From the IMG/VR virus record IMGVR_UViG_3300006790_000065, positions 1 through 32,375 of that record: a DNA stretch of 32,375 bases; one strand, written 5' to 3'. This DNA comes from a virus. Positions 1,357 through 3,979 of the stretch are shown one piece after another. The translations under genes and the position numbers were made by a program. How positions within the stretch are numbered: the stretch's first letter is position 1; every line of letters begins with the position of its first letter. The notes under the pieces were generated by a model that worked only from the letters and a program-made list of their open reading frames with translations, was not told the origin of the DNA and did not search any database.

Positions 1357-1886
1357 TTTTTAATTATCCTTGTTTTTTGACCTACATAAACATTAAAGGT
1401 TTCTAAGGGCAGGTCGGAACCCTTTTCTACCTGTTCCCGTACAAAAGCCTTGAGTGTCATAGGCTCTACCCACTGCTTTTGGGCAGTAGTATAGCCATTA
1501 TCCTCTAGGCTGTCCACGAGCTTTTTCGCAGAGTCGTCTTCGTCTCTACCAAAACTTACAGAAACTGTATTTTTAATAATATCGGCGAAACCATTAGTAC
1601 CTAACCATTGAAAAGCTTCATCACGTTTATCTTCACTAATACGTGCTGAGTAATAAGTGGTTGTACTAATTTTATTACCATTAGCTAAAGTAATCTCAGA
1701 TAGTCCTAGCTCACTTAACATACTAGGTATGTCAACTTCACTAAGTTCTCTGTACTTTGCTTTATGTTTGCCTAACTCTTCTTCTATTTCCTTAATTTTA
1801 TTATCAAGTTCTTGAAGTTCATTTGACTTATCTGATAACGCTTTTAGGGAAGCGTCGCCCATCGGTTTATCTTCTGGTTCAAACAT
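1353..1886 (-). CDS. Conserved phage replication-cluster protein with N-terminal coiled coil
   Basis: The 177-residue protein has a charged helical N terminus (about residues 15-50, heptad-like Leu/Ile) followed by a mixed domain containing SEITLANGNKIS, then AFQWLGTNGFADIIKNTVSVSFGR near residues 90-115 and LKAFVREQVEKG with DLPLETFNVYVG at the C terminus. I recognise this pattern as a widespread phage protein of unknown function, possibly the family called DUF7173, usually found in early or replication clusters. The coiled coil suggests it oligomerises or binds a partner. It overlaps the upstream gene by 8 bases and the downstream SSB-like gene by 4, so the three are one translationally coupled operon. 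No catalytic motif is visible. Confidence 0.75.
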   Translation of the reverse strand: MFEPEDKPMGDASLKALSDKSNELQELDNKIKEIEEELGKHKAKYRELSEVDIPSMLSELGLSEITLANGNKISTTTYYSARISEDKRDEAFQWLGTNGFADIIKNTVSVSFGRDEDDSAKKLVDSLEDNGYTTAQKQWVEPMTLKAFVREQVEKGSDLPLETFNVYVGQKTRIIKK

Positions 1887-2190
1887 GTGTGTTTACCTCT
1901 AAGTTATAATAAATGAATTCACGGTTATCCCATTTAAGTAAGTTAGCCTTACCTCCATTATTAAGTAAAGCATAATGTACACAAATACCTATCACGGCAG
2001 GATCACCAATTAAAAGCAGATAGTCGTCGTCACTAAAACTTTGTAGCTTCTTACGTATTTTGGCAATGGTAGGTACAGGACTAAACATTAGATCAGGTTT
2101 GTGATCTAATATAAGTTCAAAGTCACCATACTTTGCAGCCGAAACAATGTTTTTCTTGCTATCTGGTTTTTGTACTACGTATACTGTCAT
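1879..2190 (-). CDS. Hypothetical small protein, first gene of the minus-strand replication operon
   Basis: The 103-residue protein begins MTVYVVQ and carries a hydrophobic segment DYLLLIGDPAVIGICVHYAL near residues 56-75, followed by KANLLKWDN. It reads like a small alpha/beta protein, with a buried beta strand and a GDP turn, rather than a membrane protein. I do not recognise a named family. It is the leader gene of the operon that ends in SSB-like and primase genes, and follows a hairpin-containing leader at 2216-2237. The start ATG at 2190 lacks a strong Shine-Dalgarno sequence (only AACAAGAAACAAG precedes it). Confidence 0.7.
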   Translation of the reverse strand: MTVYVVQKPDSKKNIVSAAKYGDFELILDHKPDLMFSPVPTIAKIRKKLQSFSDDDYLLLIGDPAVIGICVHYALLNNGGKANLLKWDNREFIYYNLEVNTHV

Positions 2191-2533
2191 CTTGTTTCTT
2201 GTTTCTAAAAACTGTGGCTACCACCTAAGTAGTAGCCCCAGCCAATAGGAGAGTAATAAAATATGAATAATACTTTAACTACTAGCCTTATATTAAACCC
2301 TTATTAATAAAAAATAAACCTATATCTTTATTGGGCTTTAAAAATTAAAAAAACTTTTTTTAATAAAAGTTTTAAATTAGCTAATAGCGTCAATAGGAAA
2401 GCTCAAAACTATAGATATTAAAAGGCTAAATACGTATTGGCTAAACGTATTGGTAGGCTATTGGCATAAAACGTGCAATAAACTTTTATTTTTAGTTGAA
2501 GTAATTTATTATTACCTATAAGAGACGAGACTA
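2191..2533. promoter_or_regulatory. Divergent control region with TATTGG/CCAATA repeats (candidate origin)
   Basis: This very AT-rich gap separates the plus-strand helicase from the minus-strand replication operon, so it should hold promoters in both directions. It contains TATTGG or its complement at 2242-2247, 2329-2334, 2391-2395 (partial, CAATA), 2435-2440, 2448-2453 and 2459-2464. ACGTATTGG occurs twice with 13-base spacing (2432 and 2445), and GCCAATAG at 2241-2248 is inverted relative to CTATTGGC at 2458-2465. AAAACTTTT (2350-2358) and AAAAGTTTT (2365-2373) form an AT-rich inverted repeat. TATAAG at 2517-2522, with TTGAAG 15 bases before it, is a weak plus-strand promoter candidate. 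No convincing gene is present. Confidence 0.5.
2216..2237 (-). promoter_or_regulatory. Leader hairpin upstream of the replication operon (possible attenuator)
   Basis: On the minus strand GGCTACTAC and GTGGTAGCC form a nine-base-pair stem (one G-U pair) closed by the loop TTAG, followed four bases later by a TTTTT run. It lies 26 bases before the first gene of the operon. The G-U pair makes the stem complete only in minus-strand RNA; in plus-strand RNA it would be a C-A mismatch. Position and T run suit an attenuator or a protein-binding operator in the mRNA leader; no ligand is implied. Confidence 0.45.
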
Positions 2534-3979
2534 ATGACACAGTTTAATTTTAAGACTAAACCGTATGACCATCAATTAGAGGCATTAAATACTTCTCATG
2601 ATAAAGATGAGTATGCTCTTTTTATGGAGATGGGTTGTGGTAAATCAAAAGTAATTATTGATAACATAGCCTATCTGTATGGACAAGGTAAAATCTACAA
2701 CGCACTTATAGTGGCACCCAAAGGTGTTTACGATAATTGGGTCAGTAAAGAGATACCTACACACTTACCTGAATCTATTCAAGTAGATATTGTTAAATGG
2801 CAAAGTAACCATACTAAAACTTTTGAAAAACAACTAAATAAACTATATAAGATTGACCATAACTTAAAAATACTTGTTATGAATATAGAAGCATTTAGCA
2901 CTAAGAAAGGTGTTAAGTTTGCTAGTATGTTTATACAGCAAAATAAAACTATGTTTATAGTAGACGAAAGTACCACGATTAAAAATCCAGAGGCTAAAAG
3001 GACTGCCAGTTGTGTACGACTAGGTAAGTACGCTTATTACAGAAGAATACTTACTGGCTCACCTGTTACTAAAAGCCCATTAGATTTATATAGTCAGTGT
3101 ATGTTTTTAAATCCTGCCCTTTTAGGGTTTAGTAGTTTTTACAGTTTCCGTGCACGTTATGCTGACCTAGTAGAAAAACGTGGGCAAGGTAGAACCTATA
3201 AATTTGTGACTGGTTATAAAAATATGGATGAGTTGAATGAAACTCTTAATAAGTTTAGTCATAGAGTTTTGAAAAAAGACTGCCTTGATTTACCAGAGAA
3301 AGTATATATCAAGAGAAATATAGAAATGACTACAGAACAGTCAAAAGCATATAAAGAATTACAACGTTTTGCTGTAACTTTTTTAAAGAATCAAAAGAGT
3401 GTTACTATAAATCATGTGATAACTCAAATAATACGATTACATCAAATATCGTGTGGATTCACAGTTACAGATGACGGAGTTACTACCGAAATACCTTCAC
3501 AAAGGCTCTCAGAATTGTCCTCTATTTTAGATGAAACAGACGGAAAAGTAATCATTTGGGCTAATTACAGATATGACATCCAACGCATCGTAAATATGTT
3601 AAGAGAGGACTATGGGTATGATTCGGTGGGAGCTTACTACGGTGGAGTAGAACAAAATGAACGTGAAAGAGTAATTGATGAGTTTCAAAACCCAGATAGT
3701 GAACTACGCTTCTTTGTTGGTAACACACAAACTGGTGGCTATGGTATAACTTTAACTGCAGCAAACACTGTTATCTATTATAGTAATAACTATGACCTTG
3801 AAAAACGTTTACAATCAGAAGACCGTGCACACCGCATAGGTCAAACTAATAAAGTAACTTACATTGATATAGTATGTGAACGTACAGTTGACGAAAAGAT
3901 AGTCAAAGCTCTACGTAAAAAACAATCTATTGCTAACTTAGTATTAGGGGAAGAAACGTTTAAGGATTGGCTAAAGTAG
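2534..3979 (+). CDS. SNF2-family (superfamily 2) helicase/translocase
   Basis: The 481-residue protein has both RecA-like halves of an SNF2-type motor. Motif I is MGCGKS (33-38), motif II is DES at 144-146 within VDESTTIKNP, motif III is LTGSP (173-177), motif V is GGYGITLTAA (401-410) and motif VI is QSEDRAHRIGQ (427-437). It should hydrolyse ATP to move along or remodel DNA. No nuclease, bromodomain or primase fusion is visible, and the length is close to a minimal motor. It is the only plus-strand gene I can support here. Its position opposite an operon encoding a primase and an SSB-like protein suggests that it supplies helicase activity for phage DNA replication or recombination (inference). 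The 3' end overlaps the opposing late gene by nine bases. The start ATG follows a weak GAGACGAG sequence. Confidence 0.93.
   Translation: MTQFNFKTKPYDHQLEALNTSHDKDEYALFMEMGCGKSKVIIDNIAYLYGQGKIYNALIVAPKGVYDNWVSKEIPTHLPESIQVDIVKWQSNHTKTFEKQLNKLYKIDHNLKILVMNIEAFSTKKGVKFASMFIQQNKTMFIVDESTTIKNPEAKRTASCVRLGKYAYYRRILTGSPVTKSPLDLYSQCMFLNPALLGFSSFYSFRARYADLVEKRGQGRTYKFVTGYKNMDELNETLNKFSHRVLKKDCLDLPEKVYIKRNIEMTTEQSKAYKELQRFAVTFLKNQKSVTINHVITQIIRLHQISCGFTVTDDGVTTEIPSQRLSELSSILDETDGKVIIWANYRYDIQRIVNMLREDYGYDSVGAYYGGVEQNERERVIDEFQNPDSELRFFVGNTQTGGYGITLTAANTVIYYSNNYDLEKRLQSEDRAHRIGQTNKVTYIDIVCERTVDEKIVKALRKKQSIANLVLGEETFKDWLK

Follow-up and report, generated by a model that had tools for sequence, protein, structure and literature searches.

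The divergent gap between a leftward replication operon and a rightward SNF2 helicase gene in this viral DNA carries an array of five short sites, arranged as two inverted copies followed by three direct copies, whose spacing is almost invariant in related gaps and which has a second copy elsewhere in the genomes of relatives. We tentatively read the gap array as one of a pair of initiator-bound phage replication origins, comparable to oriL and oriR of phage SPP1, and give this reading slightly less than an even chance. It is our first choice because a unit of fixed geometry, lying beside a melting-prone stretch and present twice per genome, is the organisation of the SPP1 origins. Control of transcription by the same arrays fits almost as well, because they lie upstream of SNF2 and of the late genes, have promoter-like boxes nearby and co-occur with a helix-turn-helix (HTH) protein; both readings may hold.

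The window analysed here is an entire virus record of 32,375 bases; terminal repeats are absent and it is probably a fragment of the genome of an ocean phage. Its SNF2 protein shares 58% identity with that of 023Pt_psg01, 52.5% with DSL-LC04, 51% with Pelagibacter phage HTVC027P and 46% with HTVC023P. These four genomes are 58–62 kb in size and have a common gene order: replication operon, terminase, head/tail genes and then an oppositely oriented SNF2 gene. In the window, the leftward operon (genes at 1879–2190, 1353–1886 and 577–1356, with the primase below 537) starts with Pam3 gp32-, gp33- and gp34-like genes and an AEP-type primase. The first-pass annotation had correctly described a 343-bp AT-rich gap (27% G+C) between the SNF2 helicase and this operon, but was wrong to call it the only strand reversal in the window: it is the only divergent junction, and the SNF2 gene converges with a 363-aa gene at 3971–3979 (open reading frame list). 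The features of the region are as follows.

1879–2190, minus strand: first gene of the leftward operon, Pam3 gp32-like (Pfam PF23992, E 2.2e-24)
2191–2533, no strand: divergent gap separating the replication operon (leftward) from the SNF2 helicase (rightward) (open reading frame list)
2212–2241, minus strand: terminator-like stem-loop with a T run in the leader of the leftward operon (scan; fold of 2196–2250, z = -4.65)
2322–2381, no strand: least stable 60 bp, a candidate unwinding element adjoining the inverted pair (85% A+T; nearest-neighbour profile)
2382–2395, minus strand: inverted pair, i1 TAATA at 2382–2386 and i2 CAATA at 2391–2395, 9 bases apart (49 gaps, spacing 8 or 9)
2435–2462, plus strand: direct triple, d1 at 2435, d2 at 2448 and d3 at 2459, with TATT cores in CGTATTGG, CGTATTGG and CTATTGG (conserved spacing)
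2466–2475, plus strand: conserved box ATAAAACGTG (TAAARCRTG), just after d3 (alignment of relatives; sole box match in the window)
2498–2525, plus strand: promoter-like stretch with TTTATTATTACCTATAAGAGA, before the SNF2 start (alignment; sigma-70 score at chance level)
2534–3979, plus strand: SNF2-type helicase (Pfam SNF2-rel_dom and Helicase_C)

Attention had initially been drawn to the gap by five TATTGG motifs and one partial copy. All are present, at 2242 (minus), 2329, 2435, 2448 and 2459 (plus), with the partial TATTGA at 2390 (minus), but the copies at 2242 and 2329 are not conserved in relatives. The repeated ACGTATTGG was recovered at 2432 and 2445, 13 bases apart, as was the AT-rich inverted repeat at 2350–2373 (12-base arms, 92%). 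The 8-base inverted pair formed by GCCAATAG (2241–2248) and CTATTGGC (2458–2465) also exists, but its left arm is not kept in relatives and the pair was dropped as a key element. Over the whole window TATTGG is found 16 times against 17.8 expected, and is therefore not enriched; 5 of the 16 copies fall inside the 343-bp gap. Among 5000 first-order Markov versions of the gap not one reached five TATTGG, while some 6-mer of at least three letters attained five copies in 26% of them, so the count alone is weak evidence. Counting was rejected in favour of the conserved layout, given the chance frequency of the motif in the window and the two unconserved gap copies; it is conservation, rather than motif number, that makes the observation real.

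Scanned with the SNF2 protein, viral contigs yielded 80 loci, about 50 of which share the divergent gap (289–470 bp). Alignment of the gaps defines a conserved block at 2378–2480, which reaches relatives down to 62% SNF2 identity. Within it, the window array occupies 2382–2462 and consists of two inverted YAATA sites followed by three direct TATT sites, starting at 2382, 2391, 2435, 2448 and 2459; the sites conserved in relatives are those at 2435, 2448 and 2459, the 'partial' one near 2390 and one at 2382 that had not been listed before. The layout is YAATA, 3/4 bases, YAATA, about 40 bases, TATT, 8/9 bases, TATT, 7 bases, TATT, with start-to-start spacings of 8/9, 43–49, 12/13 and 11 bases and a first-to-last site distance of 76–80 bases (77–79 in most). 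The comparison of motif spacing in related phages that the first-pass annotation had proposed thus revealed near-fixed spacing in 49 gaps, and the regularly spaced copies of a short site that mark an iteron-type origin are present as five sites in each. A class-II profile, made only from relatives with at most 70% SNF2 identity and excluding the window, has its best match in the window at 2379–2474 (E 1.2e-7, 26.6 bits), compared with at most 10.3 bits on 40 shuffled windows. The window has one match to the layout itself, and each of five near-complete genomes with arrays has exactly two; there is no match in four genomes without arrays, and shuffled sequence gives 0.003 matches per 32 kb. Because its internal spacing is rigid, whereas the promoter-like box follows at anything from 9 to 77 bases, the array is an independent unit. 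Positions 2300–2533 gave no blastn match in an annotated phage collection, and the papers searched contain no description of the array, none of them pairing HTVC023P-type phages with intergenic regions. The array is unreported in the annotated phages and literature searched, and the paired arrangement on opposite strands is new here.

The second copy was found with the block profile, on the opposite strand, in each of the five near-complete relatives. A pattern scan for this second array (array 2) returned 35 loci with five sites at near-invariant spacing, 34 of which are second arrays; their spacings are as in array 1, they sit upstream of the late operon and in the same direction, and wherever terminase genes can be placed, the small terminase gene lies upstream and the large terminase gene downstream. 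By layout pattern, 13 related records (G001, G002, G003, G005, G006, G007, G008, G010, G011, G012, G014, G020 and G027) carry exactly two arrays on opposite strands, 18–25 kb apart, a separation that holds for G003 and G010 if these contigs are read as circular. Two arrays are present in 10 of the 12 records of at least 50 kb; of the other two, G004 has one array and G009 matches only a looser layout at its gap. The backward-read control pattern gave no record with two arrays, and the layout scan found no array in eight contigs of more distant relatives or in four database genomes. The pair brackets the replication/early module, each array pointing its direct triple away from the module, one toward SNF2 and the other toward the late genes. 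With two such sites per genome, sequence alone suffices to orient contigs and to mark out the early module. Array 1 of several relatives is recovered by the array-2 profile (E down to 6e-10), but the window's own array scores weakly (4.5 bits); the link of the window array to array 2 runs through other relatives. As in SPP1, 13 related records have two sites organised alike in one genome, while the window holds one; its own phage would have the second array outside this record. The shared layout suggests a common function for both arrays.

Adjacent DNA of low stability, a further mark of iteron-type origins, is found by composition and calculated stability at both arrays. In the window the AT-rich flank reaches 95% A+T at 2338–2377. 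In the neighbourhood examined for either array, the 60 bp immediately upstream of the inverted pair have on average the highest A+T content and the lowest stability, with a mean A+T of about 81% at array 1 and 73% at array 2, on the same side of each. The initial proposal of a phage origin or an initiator-bound operator is borne out in so far as the kept spacing, the AT-rich flank and the second copy support an array bound by an initiator or regulator; these features do not separate origin from switch.

For a paired origin, the following sequence of events can be envisaged. A DNA-binding protein encoded by the phage would bind at all five (C/G)TATT(A/G) sites, two inverted and three direct, and the near-constant layout of 77–79 bases, with steps of roughly one helical turn, suggests a single wrapped nucleoprotein complex. 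This complex would open the adjacent AT-rich stretch at 2322–2381, allowing the primase and helicase of the neighbouring operon to load. The second array, on the other strand at a distance of 18–25 kb, would serve as its partner (a late or fork-arrest origin), as oriR does for oriL, and the array may also influence transcription on both sides. SPP1 has two gp38-bound sites per genome, oriL and oriR, one beside replication genes and the other in the late region, with repeats adjoining an AT-rich stretch (PMC6316719). The arrays resemble these in number, in their replication-gene and late-region positions and in the placing of repeats beside AT-rich DNA. They differ in repeat sequence, in the combination of two inverted with three direct sites and in the opposite orientation of the two copies; in addition, oriL lies inside the initiator gene, whereas no initiator was found near the array here. 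The origins of lambda and lambdoid phages likewise place several iterons next to AT-rich DNA and close to replication genes, but the lambda iterons are longer and lie within the initiator gene O, in contrast to the short sites in a non-coding divergent gap seen here.

Other properties of the genomes bear on a role in replication. The array is missing from four database genomes whose primase, helicase and PolA genes are the same, which counts against an origin and makes the array a feature of a lineage rather than a general need of this replisome. Cumulative GC skew, proposed earlier as a check, does have an extreme at the gap in four database genomes, but gene direction switches at that point; skew follows gene orientation and was discarded as origin evidence. 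No consistent shift is seen in fourfold-site skew, nor any skew extreme at the gap when five array-bearing genomes are rotated to bring it to the centre. DnaA boxes (TTWTNCACA), by which a DnaA-dependent origin would be recognised, number zero in the window against 4.7 expected.

As had been remarked at first, no initiator was recognised, either among the first operon genes or elsewhere near the array, and no helicase loader was recognised there. Gene families were compared between five array-bearing and four array-less genomes, among which relatedness confounds co-occurrence. Those confined to array-bearing genomes include an HTH protein resembling sigma region 4 or Mor, which is encoded next to PolA, and a small basic family. 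Matches of the former to Sigma70_r4 and Mor are weak and below curated cut-offs; of 31 records in the array-bearing group 26 encode it, whereas 8 contigs without arrays do not. As a universal array binder it was rejected, being absent from the near-complete array-bearing genomes G002 and G003. Members of the small basic family are encoded about 0.3–1.5 kb from array 2, and their structure model (mean pLDDT 83) has no informative match in the PDB, matching only uncharacterised viral proteins. Both are candidate array binders. The small basic genes beside array 2 (L122, L113, L136 and others) can lie on either strand, with several copies to a genome, and GGTCCGTGG-type words are repeated in the non-coding DNA around them. 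A separate block of genes (32088–36453 in G001, and its equivalents) is common to the array-bearing genomes compared and absent from the four array-less genomes; it includes thymidylate-synthase-like and T4 endonuclease V-like Pyr_excise proteins, among others, and may, at a guess, be concerned with thymine hypermodification.

If the arrays were instead operators or activator sites of a transcription switch, a regulator on array 1 would control SNF2 and the replication operon, and on array 2 the late operon; we consider this a real possibility, if short of an even one. The location of array 2 between the terminase genes, upstream of the late operon, suits such control and counts against the origin reading. 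On the side opposite the AT-rich flank, both arrays are followed by conserved, non-consensus boxes, first TAAARCRTG-like and then CTATATA-like, which would mark promoters and are 45–49 bases apart in most array-2 loci. Against this, the array-to-box distance is variable and some loci have no box, sigma-70 promoter-like sites in the gap are not above chance in a consensus scan, and the AT-rich flank lies away from the boxes. A combined TAAARCRTG...TATA pattern, tried as a general phage promoter, was not found consistently. The distribution of the HTH protein favours a switch, but is weakened by its absence from G002 and G003 and by relatedness. Mor of phage Mu and Alt of lactococcal phages are repeat-bound activators of middle or late promoters, and share with the present case an array upstream of a late operon and, in array-bearing phages, a weakly Mor/sigma-region-4-like HTH protein; the variable array-to-box distance, the AT-rich flank on the far side and a second site facing SNF2 set it apart. 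In lambda, the multi-site arrays OL and OR flank a module with outward promoters. Here, too, two multi-site arrays flank one module, but the sites are shorter and of mixed orientation, the arrays are 18–25 kb apart and no lysogeny regulator was identified.

Two opposed copies bracketing one module, one of them between terminase genes, could also be sites of another DNA transaction used twice per genome, such as packaging, partition or nucleoid organisation. We regard this as improbable: packaging sites are expected once per genome unit, and a partial search revealed no terminase cut site or partition gene. That the words arose by chance in AT-rich DNA and have no function finds some basis in the five-copy 6-mers of the Markov gap copies, but is scarcely credible given a second copy that matches and spacing that holds in relatives with as little as 62% SNF2 identity.

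The paired-origin reading can be extended, more speculatively. Through looping, or as a pair of origins, the opposed arrays might act together in HTVC023P-related phages as a single control system that starts replication and times late expression, driven by an undescribed family of DNA-binding proteins; we think this rather unlikely as a whole. The two sites per genome provide two short fragments of DNA on which assays of protein binding, of melting and of origin activity are feasible.

Further elements were observed around the array. The leader stem of the leftward operon occurs at the same position in several relatives, with a different sequence and without the T run; no Rfam family was found in the window or the relatives searched, where there was one weak sub-threshold match. 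In class-II relatives, the replication operon is preceded by a leader RNA with an H-type pseudoknot fold (AGGUAG/CUGCCU with GACGGUG/CACCGUC) on the minus strand of the gap, at loci L023, L025–L027, L029–L031, L036, L041–L043, L045, L048, L050 and L051 (for example, L023:5639–5726). It has no Rfam match and its model has no match in the window or in class-I relatives; 88.7% of cells are paired, and 18 cells are changed on both sides, compared with 5.1 in shuffles. Between the array and the SNF2 start, L004, L006, L008 and L009 share an insert of ~74 bp whose ends are inverted (GTAAAGGT...ACCTTTAC) and which hardly differs between them although the rest of the gap has diverged, while L007 and L057 carry different inserts there. 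Rfam gave no match in the insert-bearing L004, L006, L009 and L057; the ~74-bp insert is possibly a small mobile or structured element. Finally, GGAG followed by ATGAATAA at 2249–2270 of the window (plus strand) is conserved in most close (class-I) relatives; often opening no more than a few codons, it is perhaps a minimal leader open reading frame or part of a leftward promoter.
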